A DNA stretch of 64,000 bases from Trifolium pratense (Eukaryota > Streptophyta > Magnoliopsida > Fabales > Fabaceae). The stretch lies in assembly GCF_020283565.1 (NCBI RefSeq), contig NC_060059.1:52147157-52211156 (forward strand). Reading direction: 5' to 3'. Below, piece by piece: positions 10,997 to 59,200 of this stretch (its first letter is position 1; each line of letters begins with the position of its first letter). The position numbers were made by a program, and so were the translations under genes. The notes beneath the pieces are model-generated. The model was not told the DNA's origin, ran no database searches, and worked only from the letters and a program-made list of their open reading frames with translations.

Positions 10997-11940
10997 TTTA
11001 GTCATTAAATTGTTAAAAAATCAAAAGAAATGGTGAAATTAAAAAGTGATGAAAAAGTGCATTACGCAATGGCAGCTAATAAAATGGTTGTGGATGGATT
11101 TGAGTTTCTAGAATGTGATAGTCAAAACGAGTGAGACATTTATTTAGATAATATAGAGAAAGGCAAATTGGCAGGGAACACACAATTGGACTATACTCGT
11201 GTGTGTAATCTATTTGCCGTATTTAATTTGACTCACCTCATGATATTGTTTATTTTTGTTTAATTAAACCAAGTGGTGATTAGGATATGATTGAAATGAT
11301 TAGGACTCGATTAAAAATAATGGTGAAGTTGCACAGTAGATCACTTTCATAATTCTAGAATATCTTTATTTTATTATATACCCTACAATAAACATATTAT
11401 AATTTTAAAAAATTAAACATTTTATTCACATTTTTATTTTATGACTTTAAAATTATATACTCCATTCAAAACAAAAGAAAAGTTGACTGAGCTGCTACAG
11501 ATCGTAGAAGCAAGGAAATGAGGGAACTCCTCAATCTAGAAAGTAAACCAGCTTAAGTTTTTCTACATGATCATATAGTGTCAACCTCTCACTTCAAGTA
11601 ATAGATTGGTTGCAACGAGAAATATTTGGATGCATTAGTATTTGGTCACAATTTGATAGCACACAAATAATAATACATATCATTTAATTATATTAAAATA
11701 TATATTATTTAATTATTTCTTCCTTGTATTTTTTTTTTTTAACTATGTGTGTGACTAAATATTAATTATCCATGCAAGTATTTCCCATTCACAACATCTT
11801 CCAAGGCTCAAATGGATGTTGACCGGTCAATCATAAAGATTCCACAAACTGTGATAATTCACCGGATCAAATTGGTCACCACAATGATGAACAATTAGTT
11901 AAACAATGATGGTTATTTGGCAAATATATTAAATTTATAA
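10997..11940. other. intergenic, no gene seen
   Basis: AT-rich DNA between the SINE and the Mutator-like element. No feature was recognised. Confidence 0.5.
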
Positions 11941-11949
11941 TAATATTTA

Positions 11950-12257
11950 GGCTAAATTACACTTTTAATACCCTATGTTTCAGAAATTTGCAATTTTGGC
12001 TTCTTATGTTTCAAAATAGCAGTTTTGGCCCTCTATGTTTACCCTTTTTTGCAAAAGGTCAATTTTGACCAAATCAACGCTGATGTGGCAAGTCACTTAA
12101 GTGACTCAGCTATCACATCATCTTTTTTGTCACTTGTTATTTTTAAAAAATAATAATAAAAAAATAAAAAAGAAAAACAAGGAAGAAGTCACCTGATATG
12201 ACTTTCTCTTCCCATCTATCTTTTCTTTTTTTACAAAACCAAAAAAAAAAAAAAACA
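11950..12257 (+). repeat. MULE left terminal inverted repeat
   Basis: Carries TATGTTTCAGAAATTTGCA, GCAAAAGGTCAATTTTGACC and CACTTAAGTGACTCAGCT, all found inverted in the right end. The terminal repeat fades into a TTTTTTTACAAAACC plus poly-A segment. Confidence 0.85.
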
Positions 12258-12439
12258 CGCAAAATTATGCTTATTATGCTTCTAACTTAATGGCTTGTTA
12301 TGCATATAATTCATCATAATTTTTGTTTACCATATAAAGGCCTATTTTGCATATAATGGCTTGTTATGCATATAATTCATTAGAACCTATTTCTGTCTCT
12401 TCTACATCAGTGTCACCTATGGACTATGGTCAATAAAAT

Positions 12440-14745: not shown

Positions 14746-14767
14746 TACCATAGGAAAACATTGTTTG

Positions 14768-14966
14768 TGTTATGAATAATATGTAATGAATGTCCATTAT
14801 TGTGTAGGTTTTCTTGTCCCCTAATTGTGTCCTATAAATAGGACATCTTTGTTACAATGTAATACACACCTTGAATAGAATAATACAATAGTCTATTCTC
14901 TCTTCTCTTTCTCTCCTTCATCTATTCTTCCATATTATTGTTCATGCTTAGAAATTGTTTATAACA
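14768..14966 (+). repeat. Copia 5' LTR
   Basis: 199 bp with TG...CA ends. A TATA-type promoter word, CCTATAAATAGG, lies near 14831, and CT-rich sequence follows. Differs from the 3' LTR only in GGACATC versus GAACATC just after the TATA word. Confidence 0.92.
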
Positions 14967-15114
14967 CGTTATCAGCACGATAGTCTCTCCCCTTTCAAGA
15001 AAGGTATAGCAACAAAGGGAAGTGACAATTTTATTTTATGTATGATTTTTTTTATTCTATTCTTTCAGATAATTTTTTGTCTTCTTGTTTTTTTTATATT
15101 GATTCACAAACCTT

Positions 15115-18100
15115 CGATCCAGAAGTATCGTGGTTAAATTTTTGAAATATGAATCCTGAAGATTCATAGTGTGATAAAATTTTAAAATATGAATCCTGAA
15201 GATTCATATTATGATGAAATTTTAAAATATGAATCCTGAAGATTCATGGTGTGATAAATTTTAAAATATGAATCCTGAAGATTCATAGTATGATGAAATT
15301 TTAAAATATGAATCCTGAAGATTCATAGATATAAGTAAAATGAACATCAATCCCTGAAGGATTGGATAAATAACTGATTGAATATATATTTGATCCGTTA
15401 AACAGTTCTTAAACAATTTTAAAATCAATTTGTATTACCCACGAATTCCTGAAGAATTCATTACAGATACATCTTTGAAGAATTGTACAATTAGATATAT
15501 TATAATATAACGAAGAATATGGATTATTCTTATGAGGATTGCATAAAGGATTATTCTTACATTATAACAATATTATATAGTTCCTGAAGAACTTAAAAGA
15601 AAAATCAAATTATTTCTTAAGAATTCCAGAAGAATTCAATATACATATGCATCCCTAAAGGATAGTTTTACCAATTTTTATAAAATTTTGGCAATTTACA
15701 ATTTTCAATGGATTTATTTATTTATTTCTATATTGTACAAAACATAAAAAATGTATATCATATGCCAATTTTGTTATCAATACGTTATATGCCAATTTAT
15801 TTTTATTTTTTCAATAAGTTACTAATTAATCTTATTCATAACATAGGTTACATTATAATTATTATTAAGTTACTATTTAATTTGCATTATAAATTTTCAG
15901 TACGTTACATTACATTAGTATTAATAAAAAATAATTGGAATTAATTTTTTTTATTTGACTATGTTTATTATGCTTATCTAAGTATTTGCTTAATTTTATT
16001 ATTTGATGATAGTATATATCAATGATAAATGAATGAAAAATCATTCCCAGAAGTGAATGAAGTCCAACCCATTGATGTTACTCCATTCCCGGAAGTGAAT
16101 GTAGCAACACACGATTACCATGGACAAAATTGTGGCCATCGTTGAGGTAATAGTCATGGCCGTGTTAATTTTAAAAGTTCGGCTTCTCGCTAGAATTGAA
16201 AGAAAAAAAAAAGGAAAAGTAGACAAATTAGCAAAACTAATGAAAATATATGTGATATTAGCTAGTTCCCGAAGAACTAATTAAAGAATAAAAAGGGAAA
16301 ACCTTAATATTGAAGCATCTTTGAATGATTGCTCAAAGAATAAAATTTTCTTGAAGAAATTATGAAGATTATTATGATCATTATATGAAGATCACTTGTG
16401 ATATAGTTCTTGAAAAGCTAAAGCTTTAATATTAGCGCATCTTTGATGGATTGCTCAAAGAATATGGATTTTCTTAACCAATATTATGAAAGATTGTAAA
16501 ATTGTGTTTTTCTCTAGCCATTCTGAATAGAGATTTGTTGTTGAGTTCCTGAAGAACTAATTTTTGTTTACAACATGATTAAAGTCCATATGATCTATTT
16601 GATCTTAGTATAAATTGGACCAAAATTAAAAGAACAATTATGTATGTCTCTTGAATATGCTCCTGAAGTAGCAAACTTATGAAAATAATTTCAAAAAAAA
16701 AAAAAATTTGATTAATCATATTTTAGATTGGTACAATTTCAATAATTATCAATTGAAATGTGAAAGTTTTTACATGATAATTCGACTTTATTTCTCGATG
16801 TACAACTTAGTAAGATCTCTATCTATCTATTTTATATTTTACTATGAGGTAGACGATTATTATTCCCTATGAAATATATGCCTAAGAAAAAAGTTACATT
16901 TAGCTTTTTATACATTAAACTTTGAATTTATTTTATGGTGATTATGTTTTCTTAAGCTTTGAATACAGTTATTTTCTTAATTACTTATAATTATAATTCG
17001 GTTACAGTTTGTAAATATAAACTGGTTTTTAATTATTCTGTTACTTATTTAAATCAATTTATTGATTTTAAATTATTAGATAAAAAAAAAAATTAATTGT
17101 TACTGTTTTATAATTCTGCTGAAATCCACATAAACATAATTGTTAGCATGAAAATATTCATTGATATTACTATTTATGAAAAATTAAATTTTATATATTT
17201 TTTTTGGAAGGAATTAACTTTTATATTTAGTAGTACAAAAATTATTGAAGGTTCCAGAAGAGCCAATGCATTGTTATATCGAGAAATAAAGTTACGCTTT
17301 GCCAATATATTGTATATTTTTAAGTCTTAAAGATTTTTTTATGTTTGAAGGATATTCGCATAAATAAATATCCTATTGAAACAAGAAATGGATGAGATCT
17401 TGTATCTCTATACATTACGAGACATATTATCAACATTTGCCTCTAGTTTGGGGTATATTTATATATATTTGTGCAATTGAAGCACATGTTCTTGTAAACC
17501 AGAAGTTTACAAATCATAATAAGTTTGTAATTGGCAAGATCAGTTGGGTCATCTCTGATCTATTATGATGCGAAAAGTTTCTATGGATATGTATTGAATG
17601 GCCAGAAGTTCATTCAATCTAATATTTTTTTGTGTATTACTAGCTCGCAAAGAAAATTGATAAATTAAGAAAACGAGCGTCTCTTATTTTTTAGAATATA
17701 TATAAGGTGATATTTGTAAATCAATACACCGATCATGTGGACCGATTAGATTTCTAAAATTTGAATTGATGCATCAACCAAATGGTCACATGTATGTTTG
17801 TTATAAACTCACAACCAGAAGTTTGTGAGATTATTTTTAAGAGATCATTTTATATATATTATTCAAGAAAGTATTTGATAAATATCATATGTTAATTGAA
17901 ATTTATACCAAACATCTTATGAAATATGTTCATACAAACAAAAAAATAATGGACCTGAAGATCCATTCTAAGTTATAGTTTGGAACATTCAAACATGTAT
18001 GTTGAGATATTGAATAGCATCATGCCAACAAATTATTATATACATAAGCTCTCCCCTAATTTATTTGAATTTTAGTTTATAAACATATTTTCCCATATAA

Positions 18101-19415
18101 ACATTTTTGGATGTGTTGGGTACGTTTCAATTGCTCCAATATAATGCATTTAAATGGGTAGTAAAAGAATATTGGGAAAATAATTTTTATATGAATCTCC
18201 AAAGTGAGCCAATAATTGGAGATTTTTTTTACAGCTTTATGGGCTGATTATCAATTGGTGAATTAATTTTCCCAATATTAGGGGGAGATAATAAGCAGCT
18301 AAAAATATGAACTAGAAGTTCAATTGAAATGTTTTGAAATAAATTAATAATTGTTATTTTGATCCTCTTAGAAATCAATATGAACCAGAAGTTCAAAAGA
18401 TAACTCATTTGCAAAGTTTATGAAATCAATCAACAGCTGCTAATGCTCCAATAAAAATGAATGTCCCTGTTGGACAATCTAATATTGCAAATGATTCCTA
18501 ACCACGCGTGAAGCATGGTAAGCAAATCGGTTCCAAAGATAAAAATCCTCAAATAAGAAAAGGAGCTAAAAACAAAGATGACCCGAGTGAGGATATGAAA
18601 ATAGTATTTGACATAATTAATTTTCCAGTTCCAGAAGAACTTATCAGGTACCTGTAATTTACGAAAATATAGAGATCTCGACAAACTATGTCATGAATGG
18701 AATACGATGGAACCGAGATGAAGTCAACGTTGACAATATTTTTGCACATAATAAAGCGCTATATATGTGATAAATGACAATGAGGATCATAAATCAAAGT
18801 CTATTAAGGATTATAGACAATGAAATGATTGACTAAATAAGATAGACGCAATTGATACAAAATTAAACTTGCTTTGCAAAGCGAAATGTTTTTGGACCAG
18901 TAGTCCATTTCATCTGCAGATGGAGATAAATCGATATGAATAAGTTTTCAAGAGAAAAATAATAAAAACAAAATGTTTAGAGTTTGAATTGTTATTCAAG
19001 TATATTGATAAATGTCAATCATTGATTTTCAAGAAGCATATTCACCTGAAGTGAATTCAAAAATTAATTAAGTTGAGTAGCATCTGAAATACTCAATTCA
19101 TGTGAAATATGTGTTTTAACGTATTTTACTGGCTCACTTGATAATGATGATCCCTGAAGGATTTAGTTATATTTGACAATGAATTATTTATATCCGAGGC
19201 TTATATTAATGATAAAATATCATCTAGACTCCCGAAGAGCTTATGAGATATTCTCATTTAAATTTATAATTTAAATAAGATTATATAGCAAAAGTGTTAA
19301 AACAGTTTGACATTGACAAATCTAATTTGTTGTATACTAAAAATGGTTGCAATGTCATTTGATGTGTCATGCCTCAAGAAAATGATGAACAATTTGAATT
19401 GGTCCTGAAGTACCA
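15115..19415 (+). other. series of short hairpins with a common CCWGAAG loop
   Basis: Perfect or near-perfect inverted arms of 3-8 bp enclose a loop CCTGAAG, CCAGAAG or close variants, often plus one base. Examples: 15115-15130, 15149-15167 (repeated four more times to 15326), 15348-15364, 15443-15459, 15579-15593, 15621-15637, 16041-16060, 16084-16101, 16263-16279, 16544-16558, 16658-16673, 17492-17512 (7-bp arms), 17593-17618 (8-bp arms), 17808-17829 (7-bp arms), 17948-17967, 18308-18322, 18381-18395, 18627-18641, 18893-18907, 19040-19056, 19400-19415. Arm sequences differ while the loop is kept. A few fall on codons that Copia proteins conserve (Pro-Glu), so part of the loop bias may be coding. 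The role is unknown. Confidence 0.75.
15143..15328 (+). repeat. five-fold tandem array, about 40 bp per unit
   Basis: Each unit has TTTAAAATATGAAT-CCTGAAG-ATTCAT followed by an A/T/G spacer (hairpins at 15149, 15189, 15229, 15268 and 15308). Spacing is 40, 40, 39 and 40 bp. It lies about 180 bp after the 5' LTR, where retroelements often keep leader and packaging signals. The array has no open coding frame. Confidence 0.85.
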
Positions 19416-19480
19416 TATCTTAATTCAATTAAGCTCACTAATATATTTGCTATAATTTCGTAGTATTTTATTTTTGCCTA
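17380..19480 (+). pseudogene. decayed Copia integrase/reverse transcriptase region
   Basis: Scattered frames still resemble Copia pol. Near 17540 there is a QLGH...IMMRK stretch (GAG pre-integrase). Near 17696-17790 there is an EYI-GDIC...IHRSCGPIRF block with a following WSHVC-like stretch (integrase core start). Near 18665-18760 there is a NYVMNGIRWNRDEVNVDNIFA-like stretch, cut by shifts. Near 18895 there is a relic of the GPVV motif before the RT domain, and near 19403 a GPEVPYL relic. In-frame stops and frame changes occur between all of them, so no functional protein is possible. Confidence 0.75.
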
Positions 19481-20016
19481 TTCATCCAACCCAAATATTG
19501 AAGCAAAGCAAAACATAGAATTATTTATACTTTAAAGAAACAACAATATCATCCAATCATGTGAAGATTTTAGCACTACATCAAGCAAGCTGAGAAGATG
19601 TTTTTGTTGAGGATTGTAATTCAACACATACAAGAAATTCGTTGTTTTATTACAAAATGATGGTTCCTGCAACAACTCAACATGAAGATAATATCAGACG
19701 CAGTGCTAATTTAGAGAAGAGTATAATAAAGAAGATATAACAGATTTTTCTACAGAGTCAACTTTTAGTAAAACTTTGGAGCAGCTAGTACATAAGATTA
19801 TTTGATTTTTCATCTCATGTATAATAATTGTCTTTATGAGGGGGAGATATAAATATGTTCTGCACTATTTTTCCCTTCACCGTGGTTTTGTCCCACTGGG
19901 TTTTCCTGGTAAGGTTTTTAATGAGGCAGTTCACACACAAATGATGATGTACTCTTTTTCCTTCACTAGGGTTTTTTTTAGAGAAAGAATATCCTTCATG
20001 GACATTCAAGGGGGAG

Positions 20017-20215
20017 TGTTATGAATAATATGTAATGAATGTCCATTATTGTGTAGGTTTTCTTGTCCCCTAATTGTGTCCTATAAATAGAACATCTTTG
20101 TTACAATGTAATACACACCTTGAATAGAATAATACAATAGTCTATTCTCTCTTCTCTTTCTCTCCTTCATCTATTCTTCCATATTATTGTTCATGCTTAG
20201 AAATTGTTTATAACA
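20017..20215 (+). repeat. Copia 3' LTR
   Basis: 199 bp, identical to the 5' LTR except for one substitution. Immediately preceded by the purine tract TTCAAGGGGGAG (20005-20016) used to prime plus-strand DNA. Confidence 0.92.
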
Positions 20216-20264
20216 GTTTGCTATTTTTGGGTGTTTTATGTTTTTTGTGTGTTTTTATGTTTTT

Positions 20265-20570
20265 TTTTGCTGGTTTTGTAAAAAAAAAAATAGATATATG
20301 GGAAGAGAAAGTCGTATCACGTGACTTCTTCCTTCTTTTTTTTTCTTTTTTATTTTTTTACTTTTTATTTTTTTAAAAAATAATAAGTGACAAAAAAGTT
20401 GATGTGGCAGCTGAGTCACTTAAGTGATTTGCCACATCAACGTTGACTTGGTCAAAATTGACCTTTTGCAAAAGGGGATAAATATAAGGGGTCAAAAATG
20501 CTATTTCGAAATATAGAAGGCCAAAATTGCAACTTTCTGAAACATAGAGGGTCAAAAGTGCAATTTAACC
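20265..20570 (-). repeat. MULE right terminal inverted repeat
   Basis: Inverted copy of 11950-12257. Matching words include AAGAGAAAGTC, GTGACTTCTTCC, GAGTCACTTAAGTGA and TCTGAAACATAGAGGGTC. The two ends differ by scattered substitutions and small gaps, so the element is not very young. Confidence 0.85.
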
Positions 20571-20579
20571 TAATATTTA

Positions 20580-21012
20580 TAAAGCTGTATTATCAAAAAA
20601 TAATATTTATAAAGCTGTTTTCATATAGATTATGAATTTCAATAAAACAATTAAAATTAGCTTAGCAATAAAACAATAGATTAAGAGTTTTCATATTGAT
20701 TGTGTAAAACAAGAATTAACGATGAGAATTATTAGGAATTGTTTTGAATTCTCTTTTTGTCCATATATGATTCTCTAGGTTCTAGTCTCAATAATAAAGT
20801 GTTAATACTTTAACAAAATAAACCGAGTTCAATTTATTAGCTCATCAATCCCGTTTATTTAATATGATACACTAATTTCTCACATTTTTCAGAGAGAATA
20901 ACAACAATTAACCAAAATACAAGCAGATCAATTCAAAATGTTGAACAGGACATACACATATTGATCAACATAAGATCCAAATTAAAAAGGATTGAAGTAC
21001 TAATTTAGTGGA
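20580..21012. other. intergenic, 3' flank of the 118-aa gene
   Basis: AT-rich. TAATATTTATAAAGCTGT recurs twice at about 20571-20620, partly overlapping the MULE target duplication. No gene was seen. Confidence 0.5.
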
Positions 21013-22377: not shown

Positions 22378-24400
22378 TTAAATCGGAATGCAGTTTTGTG
22401 CCCTTGTTTTGATTAAATCGGAATTTTACCCTCGCTGTTTTAAAATGCGGACTTTTATCTCCCTGTTTTATAATTTTTTTGATTTTGACCCCCCTAAAAT
22501 TCTACTTTCGAGTCACAACTTCAAAGCTTCGCACACAACTCAATTTGGATCAATAATTCACCAAATGGATATCGAAATGAACGTAATCGAGTTATCTTTC
22601 CGCAGAATCAAACCCCACTAAATTTGGAGTTACAAAGAGAGATTAATTACCGTTTTAGTGAAGGTATGTCCCCCAAAAATTCTGCACAAAATCTGCTTTC
22701 GAGTCACAACTTCAAAACTTCGCACAGAATTCCATTTGGATCCATAATTTATCAAACGGATATCAAAATGACCGTAATCGAGTTATCTTTCCACAGAATC
22801 AAACTCCACTAAATTTGGAGTTACATAAAGAGATTAATTATCATTTTAGTGAAGGTCTGTCCAAATCAATTATTGTATGGAACTACTACTGGTATTTTTG
22901 TCATGTCTCTCACCTTGTAGCTCATTTTTCAATAGTATTCATAGGCGATTATGCCGCCGGGCATGCCTTGCACATGCCCGGGCTACCTTTTTTTTTTTTG
23001 TAATAATAAGAAATAGAAAAAAAATAAAAGAAAGAAACGCATCTCGTAAAGGTACCGTACGAAACATATTTAGTCTCTTATGTTCATTTTAGTTTTCAAT
23101 TTGGTCTCTTATCTTTTAAAAGTTTCAAGTTGGTTCCTTATGTTATTGATCTCAATATAAGTTGGTTGTTTTCGTTAAATTTTGAGTTAAATTTTTCTAA
23201 CTTTTTGTTATATTTGGAGTTAATTTTTCTAAAACTTTCACATAATACTCTCCTAAGTGGTCTACGTACGCAAATTCATTAGAAAAGTCGACGATTTAAA
23301 CTAAAATTTGAGGAAAAGGACCAACTTGAAACTTTTAAAATATAAGGGACCAAATTGAAACCTAAAATAAACATAAGAGACCAAATATGCAATTAATTCT
23401 AATTTTTAACAACCTAAAACCTTCTCAATCTAGAATCTTTGTTTGATGACTTGATGTTGTTTTGAATTTTAAAATTTGTTAAACTGTTTTGATTGTTAAG
23501 TGATTATATAAATAAACTGTTTTGATTGTATAAATAAGTAGTTTAATATAATTATATACATTGATGTGGATTCAGTTTTGATTGTAACCTCTTATTTAGT
23601 CGAGCCTTAATTATATTGGAAACCTGGCTATACTCTTGCTTGTTGTTTCTTGTTTAAAAATTCATTCCAAAATTAAATATTGAAAAACAGGGTTTAAATA
23701 TTTCTATATTCGAAATTTGGGTTGATAAAATTCCCTCAAAAAATTTGTTTGGGCTCCCTAACAATCCTGGAGTCGCCACTGATAGTATTTACATGTCCGG
23801 AAAGCTAACGAAATTAATCTTGTTGTCATTTAAATTTCTTCAAATTTGGAGTTACGATGTGTTTGGTAGACGATGTTGAATTTGAAGGTCATAAGTAGAT
23901 TTCTGCAAAATTAGTAATTGGACAGACCTTCACTAAAACTGTAATTAATCTCTCTTTGTAACTCCAAATTTAGTGGGGTTTGATTCTGTGGAAAGCTAAC
24001 TCGATTATGGTCATTTCGGTATCCGTTTGGTGAATTATTGATCCAAATTGAGTTGTGTGAGAAGCTTTGAAGTTGTGACTCAAAAGCAGAATTTTGCAGA
24101 ATTTTGGGGGACATACCTTCACTAAAACGGTAATTAATCTCTCTTTGTAACTCCAAATTTAGTGGGGTTTGATTCTGTGGAAAGATAACTCGATTACGGT
24201 CATTTCGATATCCGTTTGGTGAATTATTGATCCAAATTAAGTTGTGTACGAAGCTTTAAAGTTGTGACTCGAAAGCAGAATATTAGGGGGGGCAAAATCC
24301 AAAAAATTATAAAATAGGGGGGGTAAAAGTCCGCGTTTTAAAATAGGGGGGGTAAAATTCCGATTTAATCAAAACAGGGGGGCAAAACTGCATTTAAGCC
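22378..24400. mobile_element. long-TIR non-autonomous DNA transposon (MULE-like)
   Basis: The left arm 22378-22870 is repeated inverted at about 23917-24400. Outer ends read AATGCAGTTTTGTGCCC and, inverted, AAATGCAGTTTTGCCCCCC. Each arm contains two tandem copies of a roughly 190-bp unit carrying TTCGAGTCACAACTTCAAA and CTAAATTTGGAGTTAC. The target duplication is not resolved; TGTTAAA occurs at both borders. No transposase was found. The middle holds a nested palindromic MITE and unrecognised AT-rich DNA with a GTCGCCACTGATAG word near 23770. Confidence 0.7.
23065..23389. mobile_element. palindromic MITE nested in the long-TIR element
   Basis: Its left half (CATATTTAGTCTCTTATG, TTTCAATTTGGTCTCTTAT, AAAAGTTTCAAGTTGGT) reappears inverted in the right half (ACCAACTTGAAACTTTTAAA, AAGGGACCAAATTGAAACC, CATAAGAGACCAAATATG). 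No target duplication is obvious. Confidence 0.65.
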
Positions 24401-42282: not shown

Positions 42283-42437
<155 letters not shown>

Positions 42438-48730: not shown

Positions 48731-48978
48731 AGTGAAAGAAACCAACCAACCAAAAATAACTAGAGATTACATTTGGTGAGTAGAAAAAGTAGCCACTGAT
48801 GACAAATCGTCACACTCTCTATTCCATGCCTATTTTAGCAACATTAGATACATTTTAGTAGGTTTTTAGCAATAAATATGAGAGAAATCTAACCATTAGC
48901 TTGATTACTTGATTTGCAAGAAAACAGGAAAAACTGCAGGAAATAAAGGATTTTCACTACGCTGGGGGCGTAGCCCAT

Positions 48979-49260
48979 CACGCGCCGCGTGATGCAGCTC
49001 ACAGGGAGCCAGGATTTTTACTCTGATCACGCGCGGCGTGAAGCTTGACCACGCGCGGCGTAAAGCTTGGTGCAGGAACTGGATTGCTCTCTGACTTGCC
49101 CACGCGCGGCGTGATACCTGACCACGCGCGGCGTGAAGTCTTGATTGAAGATGAAGATTGCCTCTGACTTGATCACGCGCCGCGTGATTCTGTTACCACG
49201 CGCGGCGCAGTTGATGGATTTGCAACCACGCGCGGCGTGATGGATCTGGCGCGCGGCGTG
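48979..49260 (+). promoter_or_regulatory. array of nine CACGC-N3-GCGTG dyads in U3
   Basis: Units start at 48979, 49028, 49050, 49101, 49123, 49174, 49197, 49227 and 49248. Arms are CACGC and GCGTG, with centre GCG or GCC and a few arm variants. Members lie 21-23 bp apart within pairs, and pairs recur every 73 bp (49028, 49101, 49174) with a shared CTCTGACTT word. Each unit contains CGCG words like the CGCG box bound by plant CAMTA factors (family knowledge; binding here is inference). A related imperfect dyad, CTACGC-N5-GCGTAG, lies just upstream (48958-48974). Confidence 0.85.
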
Positions 49261-49270
49261 GTTGCCTTCT

Positions 49271-49280
49271 GTATATATAT
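49271..49280 (+). promoter_or_regulatory. probable TATA box of the Athila-type LTR
   Basis: GTATATATAT directly follows the dyad array. The same sequence is at 58379-58388 in the 3' LTR. Placement between array and the rest of the LTR fits the U3 core promoter. Confidence 0.6.
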
Positions 49281-50098
49281 TTTCTGCATAATTCTGTTTT
49301 CGGGTTGGAAAATTCTGCATCTTTTCACTACATTCTGGTCTTGGAACTTGAAGATCGTGATTCACACTCCAGCGGAGAGCTCCAAGCGCATCAGATCATG
49401 GATTCACAAGCCGTGGCGATGAAGCGAGGAAGCGTACGAAGAACGATGAGGAGCTAAACTCCCTCGGAGGTAGAATCTAGGTAGTTTAGGATGTAGTTCA
49501 TCTGAATGTAACCTGCAATTGTGTAAGATCATACTCTCTTTATAGTATTCATTCAATTCAAGTCTGTTTCTAATGCTTTACAATCCTTCATTAGTGTTGT
49601 AATGATTTTGAGTTAAGTCACGTGCGAGAGTATTGATTTAATGTCTGAACTGAATTGAATTGAGCGCTCGAGTGTCTCCGGTCGAGAGATTGAGGCATAG
49701 AGTGTAGCAAACGATTGACGTGCGTTAATATCATTCGTTGTAGGTAGCTTCCGCCCGAGAGATCGGGGGAGTATCGACAACGAATAGAGTGGATTTTGAC
49801 AAGAGATTGCGATTCACTATTTTGTCGATCTAGTTGTGAATACTTGAGTAGTTCTTATACATTGTAGGTTGCATGCGGTTAGCTATAGCCTAGATGATTC
49901 CGATGATTCTACCTCGCTTTTCCATATTATCAAGCACATTTTCTAGCAATTCATTACTCAACATACCCCCAATTCATGTGTATTTTTTGTATAATGTCTA
50001 TGAACACCGTTCGACTAGTTTGATCACACAATCCCTGTGGATCGATATTTTATTACTACGTGATTTTCGTACACTTGCGAAATTTATCATCAAGTTTT

Positions 50099-50116: not shown

Positions 50117-50224
50117 TTGTGATTGATTCAACTAGGCAATAGTGTTCAGATTTTCTGTGTTTGTTCTGTATTTTCTGTTTTATATTTTTCTCCCGGAGCG
50201 TTCTACTTGTGTGTTTCATTGTGC

Positions 50225-53200
50225 ATGCGGAGAACAGGTCCTCAAGAGCTGCAATTTGATCCGGAGATTGAAAAGACAGCTCGCGCAATTCGAAAGGCAA
50301 CAAGGGAAGCTCAAGCTTCAAGGGGAACAGCTTTGCTAAGGGATACACCGGACTGTCAAGGACAGAATTCAGCAACAATGGAGGAAGAACAGGTTCCACC
50401 GGTTCCTCAACCGCCAAGGCGCACCCTTGGTGATTATGGAAGGAGAGACAATGACGCGTTGGCAAATCAAGGCTTTCAGCCGGCGAATCCTGTTTCATTC
50501 GACATCAAGAACACGGTCCTTTCCGCCTTAAAAGAGAATCCGTATTCAGGTTCGGAAGCTCAATGCCCGAATTTACACTTGTCTCACTTCTATGAAGCCT
50601 GCGACTATACCGATCCACCGGGGGTGAGCGAATCGGACAAAAGACTTAGGTTATTCAAGCATTCTCTCACCGGCCGTGCTAAAGATTGGTTAGACACGAT
50701 ACCCGCCGGAACGATTGAGACTTGGAGACAGCTGGAGCGGAAGTTCTTAGATCGTTACTTTCCTATTCATAAGTTTCTAGAAAGAAGGGCTGAAATTAGC
50801 AACTTCGAACAAGCGGATGGTGAGACGTTGTATGATGCTTGGGAAAGGTTCAAAGTCTGTCTTAAAAGGTGCCCGAATCACGGTTTCGATGGCCACAATC
50901 AGATGCAAATGTTTACCCAAGGTTTGAGGGCTCAAACGCGAATGATACTTGACGCATCAGCCGGTGGTTCGTTGAAGAACCGTGACGAAACTGAAGCAAG
51001 AGAATTGGTGGAAAGCATGGCTCAAAACGAGTATAGAGCTACTAATGATAGAGGAGCCAAAAAGAAAGGCGGAGTGTTGGAATTAGATACTCAATCAGCA
51101 CTATTGGCGCAGCAAAAGCTCATGACTAGCCAAATGGAAGCAATGATGAAGCTGCTGTCCAATCCACAAGTTCAATCTTCTCCAATAGGTAAAATTGACA
51201 ATGTGCGCTGTGATTTTTGTTTGCAGGACCACCCTAATGGCGGATGCTTCCCGGAGGGTTCAGAGGAGGCTCGCTACTTGGCCAATTTTCGGAAGCCGTA
51301 CAACAATAATAACAACGGTTCCGGATGGGGGAATGGTATGCAAGGTCAAGGTACATCGCAGCAGCAGCAGAGGCCTCCATCAAGGATGGAAGAGACTCTA
51401 AATCAGTTCATGCTCATGACTCAAAGCAACTTTGAAGCGATGAAATCGAGTCAAGCAACTTCTAACAAGAATCATGAAGCTTCTATAAAGAATCTTGAGG
51501 TGCAAATGGGTCAGCTGTCAAGACAGTTTTCTATGTTGCAAAACCAAGGAGGTTTCGGTGGAAACACTCATGATAATCCGAAAAATGAAACTTGCAATGG
51601 AATCACTTTGAGGAGTAGAGAGATACCGGAAAGGCCAGTTGTGGAGAAACCCTTGAAAAAGAAGGTCATTGAGGGAGAAGTTGAAAATGAGCAAGAGGTC
51701 GTAGTTGAAAATGAGAGATATGAGGGTGAAGTAGAAAAGGAGACTATGACCAAGGAAGTTGAGATTAGTGAGGATGAGAAAGAAGAAGTTGAAAAACAGA
51801 GGGAGATAAAAGAAAAAGAGAGTAAGAAGGTTGAGAAAGGTAAAGGGATTGATGAATCACCATATGCTAGGATGCCTTTTCCTAGGAGAAAGAAAGTGAA
51901 GAATCTTGAGCGGGAGAAGGAGTTCAAGAAGTTCATGAAAGTGTTGAACAAGCTTGAGATGGCTATACCTTTAGTTGAGGCTTTGGAGCAAATGCCGAGT
52001 TATGCTAAGTTTTTGAAGGAGCTGCTCACAAAGAAAAGGAAACCATTGGATGATGAAATGGTAAGTATGACGGAAGAGTGCAGCGCCCTCATTCAACGGA
52101 AGCTACCTCAGAAAAAGAAAGATCCGGGGAGCTTTACAATCCCTTGTTCCATTGGGGATCTTACTATTGGAAAGGCTTTGTGTGACTTGGGTGCTAGTGT
52201 AAATTTGATGCCGTTATCAATGATGAAGAAGATACCGGGAGCTGTAGCGAAGCCGACAAAGATGAGTCTCTCTTTGGCGGATAGATCCATCGTGTATCCG
52301 GAAGGTATCTTACATGATGTTCTGGTGCGAGTCGGCGGATTTGTGTTTCCAGCTGATTTTGTTGTCTTAGACATGGAAGAAGATAAGAATTGGGAACCCT
52401 TACTGTTAGGAAGACCATTCTTAGCTACCGGACGCGCCCTTATTGATGTGGAGTTGGGAGAACTAATGTTCCGGACTGACGGTGAACAAATCCTCTTTAA
52501 TGTGTTTGAAGCTATGAAACAACACGACGATGACACTCAATGTTTCAGAATTGAATTGGTTGACGAGGTCATTGAAGATATCTTTAAGGTTCAACACTCT
52601 TCCTCTACTCTTGAAAAGGTGTTAGTTAACTCATTGGATAATGTGGAAGACGAATGGGAGCGAGAAATTGAGTTATGTCTTAGCAATTTGAATGCTAATC
52701 GGATAGATGAAAGTCCTAAGTTTGACAACCTCCTTGAAGTGAATGATAAGGATCAAACGGAAGAAGAAAGGAAAGCTCCCGAACTGAAGCAACTCCCTTC
52801 ACATCTAAAGTATGTGTTCTTAAGTGATGATGCTTCGTTTCCAGCCATCATTAGCAGCAAACTCACTCATTTGGAAGAAGAGAAACTGTTGAGAGTTTTG
52901 AAGTCCAACAAAGCCGCAATGGGGTGGACTATCTCCGATCTGAAAGGAATAAGTCCCACTTTTTGCATGCATAAAATCAAGTTGGAAGCTGAGTTTAAAC
53001 CAGTTGTGCAACCTCAACGAAGACTTAATCCTACCATGAAGGAAGTTGTGAAGAAAGAGGTGCTGAAACTATTGGAGGCCGGCATGATATACCCTATCTC
53101 CGATAGTGCTTGGGTATCGCCGGTGCATGTGGTGCCGAAAAAAGGGGGAATGACGGTGGTGAAAAACGATAAGAATGAGTTTATTCCATCTCGGACTGTC

Positions 53201-55675
53201 ACGGGATGGCGTATGTGCATTGACTACCGTCGACTCAACACCGCTACTAGGAAGGATCACTTTCCCCTGCCATTCATGGATCAGATGTTGGAACGGTTAG
53301 CGGGGCAAGAGTTCTACTGTTTCCTTGATGGTTACTCAGGTTACAATCAGATCACCGTCGATCCGGAAGATCAAGAGAAAACGGCGTTTACTTGTCCTTT
53401 TGGGGTGTTTGCATATCGAAGAATGCCGTTTGGATTATGTAATGCCCCAGCGACGTTTCAAAGATGTATGCTGGCCATCTTCTCCGATATGATGGAGGAC
53501 ACAATGGAGGTATTTATGGATGACTTTTCGGTTTTCGGTAAGTCTTTCGATTTTTGCCTTTCTAATTTGAATGATGTGCTGAAAAGGTGTATAAGTACCA
53601 ATTTGGTTTTAAATTGGGAAAAATGTCACTTCATGGTAAGAGAAGGGATTGTTCTCGGTCACAAAATTTCCTCAAGGGGGATTGAAGTAGACCAAGCCAA
53701 AATTGAGGTAATCAAAGAGCTACCTCCACCGTTGAATGTAAAGGGGGTAAGGAGTTTTCTCGGACATGCCGGGTTCTACCGGCGGTTCATTAAGGATTTT
53801 TCAAAAATTGCAAAACCCTTATCATCCTTACTAGTCAAGGATACGGTGTTTCTTTTTGATGAGGCTTGTGTGACTGCGTTTAATTGTCTTAAAACTAAGT
53901 TGGTGACTGCCCCCGTGATCGTTGCGCCACAATGGGATCTCCCTTTTGAATTGATGTGCGATGCAAGTGATTACGCGGTTGGTGCAGTCCTAGGCCAACA
54001 CCATAACAAACTTTTCCATGTGATATACTACTCTAGCAAGGTCCTTAATGAGAATCAAATTAACTACACCACAACGGAGAAGGAATTGCTAGCGGTGGTA
54101 TTCGCTTTGGAAAAGTTTCGTTCCTATCTAATTGGGTCAAAAGTGATTGTTTTTACAGATCATTCAGCTTTGAAGTATTTGTTGACAAAGGGCGATTCCA
54201 AGCCGCGGTTGTTGCGATGGATGTTGCTTTTACAGGAGTTTGATTTGGAAATCCGAGACAAGAAGGGGGTAGAGAATGTGGTGGCTGACCACCTCTCAAG
54301 GCTGAGCAATCCGGATATTACTAATAAGGAAGAAGCTATTAAGTGTGAATTCCCGGATGAAAATTTGCTTGCCGTATCTGAGTTTCCATGGTTCGGTGAC
54401 ATTGCTAACCTCAAAGCTAGTGGATTCATTCCGGAAGAAATGACGGCACAACAAAAGAAGAAGCTCTTCGCGGATTCGCGACATTATTTCTGGGATGATC
54501 CATTTTTGTTCAAGATGAGTAATGATGGCATGATTCGTCGATGTGTGGCCGATAGTGAGATCCGAGGTATTATGTGGCATTGTCACAACTCGCCTTGTGG
54601 CGGGCATCATAGTGGCCCAAGAACAGCTGCGAAGGTTTTACAATGTGGATTCTTTTGGCCAACGATCTTTCAAGATTGCATGGAGTTTGTAAAGGCTTGT
54701 GATGCGTGTCAACGATCGGGGGGTGTGTCTAAGAGAGATGAGATGCCGCAGCATGGCCTAACTGAAGTCGAACCATTTGATGTATGGGGGATTGATTTTA
54801 TGGGACCATTTCCTTCGTCCCAATCTAATGTGCACATTTTGGTTTGTGTGGATTATGTTACAAAGTGGGTCGAAGCTATAGCCTGTCCAGCCAACGATTC
54901 AGCCACTGTGGTGCGGTTTCTCAAAAAGAACATATTTACAAGATTCGGGGTGCCGAGGATCTTAATCAGCGATGGTGGGAAGCACTTCATTAATCAGCAT
55001 CTTGAAAATTTGTTGAGGAAGTATAATGTTAAGCACAAGGTTGCTACTCCCTATCATCCTCAAACTTCCGGACTAGTTGAAGTGTCCAATCGCCAATTGA
55101 AACAGATTCTTGAGAAGACAGTTTCCTCTTCTAGGAAGGATTGGTCACTCAAACTCGATGACGCGTTATGGGCATACCGTACTGCGTTTAAAACCCACCT
55201 CGGTTTTTCCCCGTATCAGTTGGTTTATGGAAAAGCATGTCATTTACCCGTGGAGCTTGAGCACAAGGCATACTGGGCTGTTAAGCAACTGAACATGGAT
55301 GCCACACTCGCCGGTAGAGCTCGGTTGTTGAAGCTCAATGAGTTAGAGGAATGGCGCGAAAGGGCATATGAAAATGCAGTGCTGTACAAGGCAAGGACTA
55401 AACGCTATCATGATGCGCAATTAGTTCCGAAGAAGTTTCACGAAGGACAGTTGGTGCTTCTATTTAACTCTCGATTCAAGTTATTCCCCGGAAAACTCAA
55501 GTCCAAGTGGTCTGGTCCTTTTGTAGTTAAGGAGGTGTTTCCACATGGGGCTGTGGAAATCTTCAAATCAGGGGAGGAGAATCAGAGTTTTAAGGTGAAT
55601 GGTCAAAGATTGAAAGTTTATCGTGGTGGAGAGCTCGTTCGGCACAATGTGGCTCTTTTCTTCCAAGACCCTTAG
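50225..55675 (+). CDS. Gag-Pol polyprotein of the Athila-type element
   Basis: 1816 codons, unbroken. The start is the ATG of [14 protein letters not shown]; the frame is open upstream but without a better ATG. Approximate domains: Gag 125-260 ([20 protein letters not shown]); a knuckle-like C-x2-C-x3-H-x4-C near 327; a charged Glu/Lys-rich linker 500-570; aspartic protease DLGAS near 653; reverse transcriptase about 930-1150 with FMDD near 1096 in place of the usual YxDD; RNase H about 1240-1330 ([23 protein letters not shown]); integrase with an H-H-C-C finger about 1449-1493; and a D-D-E core ([23 protein letters not shown]) to about 1616. A GPF-containing C-terminal module lies near 1760. 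No stop or shift, so it could support transposition. Confidence 0.95.
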
Positions 55676-57904: not shown

Positions 57905-59200
57905 TGATGACAAATCGTCACACTCTCTATTCCATGCCTATTTTAGCAACATTAGATACATTTTAGTAGGTTTTTAGCAATAAATATGAGAGAAATCTAA
58001 CCATTAGCTTGATTACTTGATTTGCAAGAAAACAGGAAAAACTGCAGGAAATAAAGGATTTTCACTACGCTGGGGGCGTAGCCCATCACGCGCCGCGTGA
58101 TGCAGCTCACAGGGAGCCAGGATTTTTACTCTGATCACGCGCGGCGTGAAGCTTGACCACGCGCGGCGTAAAGCTTGGTGCAGGAACTGGATTGCTCTCT
58201 GACTTGCCCACGCGCGGCGTGATACCTGACCACGCGCGGCGTGAAGTCTTGATTGAAGATGAAGATTGCCTCTGACTTGATCACGCGCCGCGTGATTCTG
58301 TTACCACGCGCGGCGCAGTTGATGGATTTGCAACCACGCGCGGCGTGATGGATCTGGCGCGCGGCGTGGTTGCCTTCTGTATATATATTTTCTGCATAAT
58401 TCTGTTTTCGGGTTGGAAAATTCTGCATCTTTTCACTACATTCTGGTCTTGGAACTTGAAGATCGTGATTCACACTCCAGCGGAGAGCTCCAAGCGCATC
58501 AGATCATGGATTCACAAGCCGTGGCGATGAAGCGAGGAAGCGTACGAAGAACGATGAGGAGCTAAACTCCCTCGGAGGTAGAATCTAGGTAGTTTAGGAT
58601 GTAGTTCATCTGAATGTAACCTGCAATTGTGTAAGATCATACTCTCTTTATAGTATTCATTCAATTCAAGTCTGTTTCTAATGCTTTACAATCCTTCATT
58701 AGTGTTGTAATGATTTTGAGTTAAGTCACGTGCGAGAGTATTGATTTAATGTCTGAACTGAATTGAATTGAGCGCTCGAGTGTCTCCGGTCGAGAGATTG
58801 AGGCATAGAGTGTAGCAAACGATTGACGTGCGTTAATATCATTCGTTGTAGGTAGCTTCCGCCCGAGAGATCGGGGGAGTATCGACAACGAATAGAGTGG
58901 ATTTTGACAAGAGATTGCGATTCACTATTTTGTCGATCTAGTTGTGAATACTTGAGTAGTTCTTATACATTGTAGGTTGCATGCGGTTAGCTATAGCCTA
59001 GATGATTCCGATGATTCTACCTCGCTTTTCCATATTATCAAGCACATTTTCTAGCAATTCATTACTCAACATACCCCCAATTCATGTGTATTTTTTGTAT
59101 AATGTCTATGAACACCGTTCGACTAGTTTGATCACACAATCCCTGTGGATCGATATTTTATTACTACGTGATTTTCGTACACTTGCGAAATTTATCATCA
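57905..59200 (+). repeat. Athila-type 3' LTR
   Basis: Offset from the 5' LTR by exactly 9,108 bp over its whole length, with no gap and no substitution noticed. Carries a third copy of the dyad array (58087-58368). Confidence 0.95.

Follow-up and report, generated by a model that had tools for sequence, protein, structure and literature searches.

Small hairpins with a common CCWGAAG loop and variable arms in a gene-less Copia derivative of Trifolium pratense: a conserved candidate RNA structure

What keeps complementary arms of different sequence around one and the same loop? The question is raised by a stretch of 64,000 nucleotides from Trifolium pratense (NCBI RefSeq assembly GCF_020283565.1, contig NC_060059.1, positions 52,147,157 to 52,211,156 of the forward strand; this whole stretch is called the window below). 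Inside a Copia-derived long terminal repeat (LTR) retrotransposon of the window, more than twenty small hairpins share the loop CCTGAAG or CCAGAAG (CCWGAAG, W being A or T), whereas their arms vary. A reading made earlier from the sequence alone had considered an RNA structure, a mutational process that perfects palindromes, and a contribution of Pro-Glu codons. The comparisons reported here give good support to a sense-strand RNA structure that would be under selection in a clade of Copia elements, and make its recognition by Gag for packaging the function that we somewhat favour. The genome searched comprised 413.6 Mb in 90 contigs, and all comparisons were made within this genome; loci other than the window carry L numbers.

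The CCWGAAG interval is interior sequence of an LTR element of 5448 bp (14768-20215) that is both complete and young; its parts are as follows.

14768..20215, + strand: non-autonomous Copia-derived LTR element with TG...CA ends, delimited by its LTR pair and target-site duplication (TSD)
14763..14767, no strand: left TSD, GTTTG
20216..20220, no strand: right TSD, GTTTG
14768..14966, + strand: 5' LTR, 199 bp, with a single mismatch to the 3' LTR (14842, G/A)
20017..20215, + strand: 3' LTR, 199 bp
14967..14980, + strand: putative primer-binding site (PBS), CGTTATCAGCACGA, recognised by complementarity to the tRNA-Ile(AAT) anticodon arm
20007..20016, + strand: purine run ahead of the 3' LTR, polypurine-tract-like in sequence
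15135..15341, + strand: 40-bp tandem array, 5.2 copies, bearing five hairpins

The putative PBS can pair over 14 bases with the anticodon arm of tRNA-Ile(AAT), a C facing A34, which would be inosine. Because the match is to the anticodon arm rather than to the tRNA 3' end, it suggests a half-tRNA primer. The tRNA arm sequence was found at 32 genomic places, with A at the position in question in 28 and G in 4, and the two loci that were fetched are tRNA-Ile(AAT) according to ARAGORN. The same PBS is present at L045:941, L053:479, L054:550 and L055:525.

The longest stop-to-stop frame of the interior has 86 amino acids, so that the element has no coding capacity of its own, and none of seven short frames of the element had a match in a Pfam scan. 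The interior retains remnants of a polyprotein. A frame of 51 amino acids is common to a large genomic family (150 matches among the best 150 of 487 candidates), and its matches include places inside open frames of 397-1300 amino acids. Given the LTR pair with its TSD, the absence of frames longer than 86 amino acids and the kinship of the 51-residue frame to Copia frames, the element is a recently inserted, gene-less Copia derivative. At gathering thresholds, Rfam returned only a tRNA in the window, and neither the 3' untranslated motif nor the PBS had a match in IMG/VR.

The hairpins of this copy are listed below; "plus one" stands for one extra loop base.

15115..15130, + strand: hairpin, loop CCAGAAG plus one
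15148..15168, + strand: hairpin, CCTGAAG (array copy 1)
15186..15210, + strand: hairpin, CCTGAAG (array copy 2)
15229..15247, + strand: hairpin, CCTGAAG (array copy 3)
15267..15287, + strand: hairpin, CCTGAAG (array copy 4)
15307..15327, + strand: hairpin, CCTGAAG (array copy 5)
15348..15364, + strand: hairpin, CCTGAAG
15443..15459, + strand: hairpin, CCTGAAG
15579..15593, + strand: hairpin, CCTGAAG
15621..15637, + strand: hairpin, CCAGAAG
15651..15663, + strand: hairpin, near-variant loop CCTAAAG
16041..16060, + strand: hairpin, CCAGAAG plus one
16084..16101, + strand: hairpin, near-variant CCGGAAG plus one (CCAGAAG in L009, L014 and L017a)
16263..16279, + strand: hairpin, near-variant CCCGAAG
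16344..16361, + strand: hairpin, near-variant CTTGAAG with an extra base at the left
16544..16558, + strand: hairpin, CCTGAAG
16658..16673, + strand: hairpin, CCTGAAG plus one
17250..17264, + strand: hairpin, CCAGAAG, with one G-U; relatives show one two-sided GC to AT change
17492..17512, + strand: hairpin, CCAGAAG; L044 shows a two-sided TA to CG change
17593..17618, + strand: hairpin, CCAGAAG plus one, with one G-U; L044 shows two-sided TA to GC and GC to AT changes
17808..17829, + strand: hairpin, CCAGAAG plus one
17948..17967, + strand: hairpin, CCTGAAG plus one
18308..18322, + strand: hairpin, near-variant CTAGAAG
18381..18395, + strand: hairpin, CCAGAAG
18627..18641, + strand: hairpin, CCAGAAG, falling on a Pro-Glu codon pair of the family-wide 51-residue frame
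18893..18907, + strand: hairpin, near-variant CCAGTAG
19040..19056, + strand: hairpin, CCTGAAG
19150..19162, + strand: hairpin, CCTGAAG, weak (3 bp)
19400..19415, + strand: hairpin, CCTGAAG plus one

All 23 CCWGAAG heptamers of the interior (14967-20016) are on the sense (+) strand, and all 23 are enclosed by complementary arms of 3-9 bp once G-U pairs are counted. The three cases that had been singled out as best, 17492-17512, 17593-17618 and 17808-17829, were recovered at exactly these coordinates. The perfect arms of 3-8 bp described at the same time held for most sites: Watson-Crick pairs alone give arms of at least 3 bp at 21 of the 23, but sites 17254 and 17602 pair only with sense-strand G-U, and neither is rescued when A-C, the wobble of the opposite strand, is allowed instead as a control for G-U. 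The seven-base loop needs a similar correction. The heptamer is indeed common, with one extra base at 7 sites, but at 16 of the 23 its outer C and G are free to pair, which may leave a five-base CWGAA loop. Five hairpins, those at 15148-15327, belong to the 40-bp tandem repeat and should therefore count once. A second repeated hairpin type, at 16318-16339 and 16440-16461, has TCTTTGA/TCAAAGA arms and eight-base loops ending in ATTGC; these two belong to a duplication with 122-base spacing.

To measure arm pairing against chance, the array was reduced by excluding four of its five tandem copies (15155-15314), which left 19 sites. Adjusted arms of at least 3 bp were found at 17 of the 19; among 342 pairings of arms from different sites the rate was 7.6%. 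The summed arm score was 81, compared with 17.5 ± 6.0 after redistribution of the right arms among sites (largest value 44; 0 of 20,000 re-dealings as high), and the claim of variable arms around a common loop at more than twenty sites is confirmed and proves stronger than first described. The 11 other CCWGAAG heptamers of the window, 9 on the + strand and 2 on the − strand, have adjusted arm scores of 0-1. Pairing also depends on the loop: the share of loops with adjusted arms of at least 4 bp is 17/23 for exact matches, 5/11 at one mismatch, 1/53 at two mismatches and 2/345 at three; one further one-mismatch loop (15654) has a 3-bp arm. A scan for hairpins with any loop of 3-9 bases was less striking for arms of at least 5 bp (82 versus 72.8 ± 8.8 in 30 shuffles). 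For arms of at least 7 bp it gave 13 versus 6.5 ± 2.5 (highest of 30 shuffles, 11), and 7 of these 13 have the CCWGAAG loop. The excess of hairpins is essentially specific to this loop.

Simple repeat amplification, which the earlier reading had rejected, accounts for the 40-bp array and for part of the repeats in the leader of the relative L045 described below. It does not explain the match between arms. Patterns counted over the genome bear on the same point: the matched-arm patterns AGTTCCNGAAGAACT, GAATCCNGAAGATTC and GAATTCCNGAAGAATTC occur 1,235, 745 and 562 times, against 4, 0 and 1 for the corresponding reversed patterns, and the crossed-arm pattern AGTTCCNGAAGATTC, with the same loop between non-matching arms, occurs twice. 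TGAATT-N7-AATTCA was found at 985 genomic places versus 66 in its control; among the first 50 places listed, a count by eye gave 21 CCNGAAG loops, 10 near variants and 19 other loops. Some families carry a changed loop, such as CTAGATG.

Twenty regions were fetched around LTR matches (best 40 of 732 candidates scored). Three of them, L024, L026 and L028, extended hardly beyond the LTR end and were dropped, and two interrupted copies were split, which gave 17 copies in 19 pieces. Adjusted arms of at least 3 bp were present at 323 of their 329 CCWGAAG heptamers, which are not independent events because the 17 copies share ancestry, and none of the copies carries the heptamer on the opposite strand. 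Unpaired arms at the same sites in other family members, named beforehand as the observation that would speak against the hairpins, were not the pattern encountered. Most sites of the window could be traced through most copies; L011 and L013 carry a replacement at site 15235, and at site 19231 (CCCGAAG) the arm never exceeds 2 bp.

The copies have 0-2 LTR mismatches each (12 copies checked), and the 5-bp TSDs match in 11 of the 12 checked; in the wider set they match in 11 of 17, three of the six misses being pieces that end short of an LTR. Few LTR mismatches together with matching TSDs indicate that the hairpin-bearing RNA was mobilised recently. One copy, L011 (G000:C5:55424700-55427200), is internally deleted to 2.2 kb, has identical LTRs and a perfect TSD, and retains seven leader hairpins plus three downstream; no other copy with its deletion junction was found among the best 40 of 524 candidates. 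Non-autonomous LTR elements of the LARD type (large retrotransposon derivatives) have a long non-coding interior, intact LTRs and many recent copies. The present family resembles them in all three respects, but differs in that the window interior keeps polyprotein remnants and the shared-loop hairpins.

Conservation was examined on 29 hairpins (152 pairs) and, as controls, on 107 chance inverted repeats of the same element (arms of at least 4 bp, other loops), in 32 aligned rows; a local identity filter removed 349 hairpin-row combinations from the test set and 1,088 from the control set. Taking all rows together, 118 of the 2,909 pair cells had changed, and 72 of these stay paired; in the controls it was 675 of 10,572, with 279 staying paired. 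Individual diverged rows gave 4 changed cells of 91 versus 70 of 338 (L043, p=8e-5) and 6 of 90 versus 55 of 316 (L020, p=0.012), and in L044 pairing was kept in 9 of 11 changed cells versus 32 of 99 in controls (p=0.002). When distinct changes were counted, pairing was kept in 22 of 37 versus 86 of 283 (p=0.0007). The signal is mainly one of constraint and of tolerated one-sided change, not of frequent double change. Within the arms, G-U and A-C states stand at 25:9, versus 100:102 in the controls (p=0.0097). In register, 98.4% of pairs hold across rows, and after a slide of 1-3 bases 28-48%; this control is biased toward the structure because the structure was read from one of the compared sequences.

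Arms change less than the remaining sequence in five diverged relatives, by a factor of 1.4 to 5. Unfiltered change in arms, 20-base flanks and elsewhere was 4.6%, 13.3% and 16.2% in L043; 6.5%, 13.6% and 17.8% in L020; 1.6%, 6.2% and 8.1% in L015; 4.2%, 7.1% and 10.9% in L017; and 23.4%, 31.5% and 33.0% in L044. Loops vary most at offsets 1-3 (6.2, 6.2 and 4.6%) and least at the outer C and at AAG (1.6-2.1%). Over all rows, the commonest distinct loop changes are C to T at base two (13) and G to A at base four (11). These bases are the first and last of a CWG (CHG) site, and the changes are as expected from methylation decay.

Are the hairpins also found in relatives with open frames? L045 and L044 belong to a single Copia copy, which has a gag frame and, apart from it, a frame of 1180 amino acids. 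Its leader array (L045, 1062-1441) lies between the PBS (941) and the gag frame (from 1864), has arms at 11 of 11 sites (loops CCNGAAG or CTTGAAG), and is built in part from repeats, each about 80 bases long, in which two stem types alternate. L048, beside a 719-residue frame, and L049, beside a 397-residue frame, have 10 of 11 and 8 of 8 sites paired behind the PBS; the gag start was not located in either. The more diverged L053 has 8 of 9 leader sites paired. These four leaders were found by protein search and not by their hairpins; loops were counted as CCNGAAG, CTTGAAG or CCTAAAG. In L054 and L055, where 14 of 14 and 13 of 13 sites are paired, arms and spacing differ from those of the window, and alignment to it is limited to short stretches around the PBS and the hairpins; since both were picked from pattern matches, hairpins were to be expected in them. 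L046 has neither array nor PBS in the fetched piece, apparently because an LTR with 3'-end sequence was joined into the leader: in positions 95-290 of its reverse complement, an LTR preceded by 3'-end sequence is joined to the later leader part of a Copia frame of 1300 amino acids.

Within coding sequence, arms were found at 4 of 8 sites both in the pol frame of L044 and in the frame of L046, where codon-preserving shuffles average 0.8 and 0.9 (8 of 2,000 reach 4 in each case). The summed arm scores were 26 versus 5.2 and 31 versus 6.4, and were reached by 0 of 2,000 shuffles each; the two frames are related, and thus are not independent tests. A 525-base piece of gag has 1 of 2 sites paired, a count reached by 84 of 2,000 shuffles and a sum reached by 1 of 2,000. 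The similar hairpin counts in codon-preserving controls by which the sequence-only reading proposed to refute itself were therefore not seen. Pieces of the L046 frame follow the Copia order of gag, integrase and reverse transcriptase, the Pfam models being Retrotran_gag_2, gag_pre-integrs, rve, SH3_retrovirus and RVT_2, with Retrotran_gag_2 (22.5 bits, cut-off 27) and rve (31.9, cut-off 32.6) both below threshold. The gag frame (L044:1-525) contains a zf-CCHC knuckle (E 4e-6).

Family-wide conservation, sense orientation, modest covariation and leader location in relatives with frames all agree with the earlier proposal of an RNA structure in a mobilised Copia derivative. What would such a structure do? 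Its location suggests a psi-like, dispersed packaging signal, and we consider it somewhat probable that this Copia clade uses the hairpins as a dispersed RNA recognition code, read by Gag for packaging. The sense transcript would fold into many small stem-loops with a C-CWGAA-G apical loop and interchangeable stems, densest in the leader behind the PBS and scattered further downstream. The clade's Gag, with a CCHC zinc knuckle encoded in its frame, would bind the loops cooperatively and so select the RNA for packaging, possibly accompanied by dimerisation. The gene-less family would keep and multiply the sites because they give access to the particles of relatives. More tentatively, and with rather less than even confidence, the code may be multivalent and amplified by the gene-less derivatives, which would thereby out-compete their helpers for particles; the window copy has 29 paired hairpins with exact or near-variant loops, versus 11 leader hairpins plus 5 downstream in one relative with open frames, counted with slightly different loop patterns.

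Being multivalent, leader-centred and kept by gene-less riders, the array fits three precedents. In RNA viruses, many dispersed stem-loops with a common motif can serve as packaging signals (PMC6281560). The array is similar in having many common-motif stem-loops in varying surroundings on one RNA; it differs from those coat-protein signals in being carried by an LTR retrotransposon clade, in its near-fixed loop, and in being known here from sequence. In retroviruses and in Ty1, the packaging region sits near the 5' end of the genomic RNA, and Ty1 Gag favours psi-carrying Ty1 RNA in competition tests (PMC8396678). The location is alike, and Ty1 also belongs to the Copia superfamily; for its 5' region, the portion available describes a pseudoknot and dimerisation palindromes, and not an array of hairpins with a shared loop (PMC8396678). 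Barley BARE2, which is unable to make Gag, is packaged by BARE1, and its dimerisation and packaging signals are conserved (PMC3735527). The passages at hand (PMC3735527) describe no hairpin array for this pair, and in our case the partner is proposed from similarity of leader, PBS and LTR alone. Because the family was mobilised recently without genes and shares leader signals with relatives, we infer a BARE2-like parasitism of the relatives' particles. By resemblance, then, the array would be a dispersed or psi-like packaging signal. A full-text literature search, whose coverage largely leaves out subscription journals, found no shared-loop hairpin array in LTR retrotransposons in the titles and opening lines of abstracts that it returned.

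Several observations weigh against this interpretation. Compensatory arm changes, which had been proposed as a check, were obtained in part: changes keep pairing more often than in controls, but two-sided changes are few, with 4 distinct ones kept and 1 broken (at 17254, 17499 and, twice, 17602 for those kept), versus 20 and 15, respectively, among the more numerous controls. In the 15 rows of closest copies, arms (2.4%) change about as much as flanks (2.3%; elsewhere 3.9%). An arm is mostly or wholly lost at 16047 in L027, at 17254 in L015, at 17602 in L017a, and at 17954 and 19404 in L020. Four of seven leader-sized pieces (L047, L050, L051 and L052) have neither PBS nor array, and L042, a 65%-like relative, has no interior array and one unpaired CCNGAAG per strand. 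As to predicted folding, pieces of the leader fold better than shuffles (z of −3.4 and −3.9, 100 shuffles each), but of 19 hairpins folded one at a time, 6 turn out weak (−2.4 to −3.5 kcal/mol), and the minimum-energy fold of 15100-15660 pairs some array units together instead of forming separate hairpins, so that pairing between units or between molecules is possible.

A further difficulty is that leader location and sense-strand selection fit equally well with the main rival to packaging, a selected sense RNA structure that would control gag translation, nuclear export or stability, or serve as a decoy for host RNA-binding proteins. Such control of translation or export is a serious possibility, though one that we hold clearly less probable than packaging. 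Frame-less family members, which have no gag to regulate, keep hairpins across the whole interior, and some sites lie inside coding sequence; neither is readily expected from it.

A mutational process, either template switching or snap-back repair that perfects quasi-palindromes around a favoured motif, would produce mostly perfect Watson-Crick arms, as observed; tandem duplication built part of the array, and two-sided changes are few. Copying should not, however, favour sense G-U over A-C as the arms do in comparison with controls. Arms change slowly in diverged relatives, the element's chance inverted repeats show no such maintenance, and the sites recur, with other arms, in families whose leaders can otherwise be aligned only over short segments. 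Footprints of template switching by reverse transcriptase, one of the roles first proposed for the hairpins, are on these grounds very improbable.

Still a little less credible is a signal at the DNA level, consisting of transcription-factor sites or of CHG methylation targets. Arms ending in TT..AA generate the heat-shock-element-like motif TTCnnGAA, and the loop CWG is a CHG context whose commonest changes are those described above, but several arms yield no TTCnnGAA (for example AACCAGAAGTT and ATCCCTGAAGGAT), and a DNA site has no need for complementary variable arms, a single orientation or tolerance of G-U. Heat-shock-like sites and CHG targets were set aside for this reason.

The remaining idea, Pro-Glu coding bias spread by duplication without function, can draw on at least one site (18631) at a Pro-Glu codon pair of the shared frame and on the duplicated 40-bp array, but we judge it the least plausible of all, as codon-preserving controls fall far below the observed scores, the L045 leader array is outside coding sequence, and arms match within and not across sites (2 crossed occurrences versus 1,235 and 745).

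The window has other notable features. An inverted repeat pair of about 345 bp (11934-12264 and 20243-20583, 86%) flanks the element; it is apparently unrelated to it and older. Another inverted repeat of about 480 bp (22387-22864 and 23918-24394, 91%) has arms made of tandem units of about 190 bp and is foldback-like. A perfect (GA)75 run occupies 42285-42434. Finally, a direct repeat of 1296 bp, 100% identical (48797-50092 and 57905-59200), surrounds an open frame of 1850 amino acids (50123-55675) that is Gypsy-like by sight, and the insertion flanked by these repeats is very recent.

How RNAs of LTR retrotransposons are chosen for packaging is poorly understood, and outside BARE fairly little is known about the packaged RNA (PMC3735527). 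Returning to packaging by Gag, the hairpins are a candidate code that can be read by eye. The three matched-arm patterns total about 2,500 genomic occurrences, and stem, loop, number and position vary naturally in gene-bearing relatives as well as in gene-less riders, which makes the proposal testable with short synthetic RNAs and one Gag domain. The hairpins also offer a sequence handle with which non-autonomous families may be matched with their helpers. If the proposal is true, this would be an instance of assembly through dispersed packaging signals in an LTR retrotransposon, and the arms race between riders and helpers would be visible in the genome.

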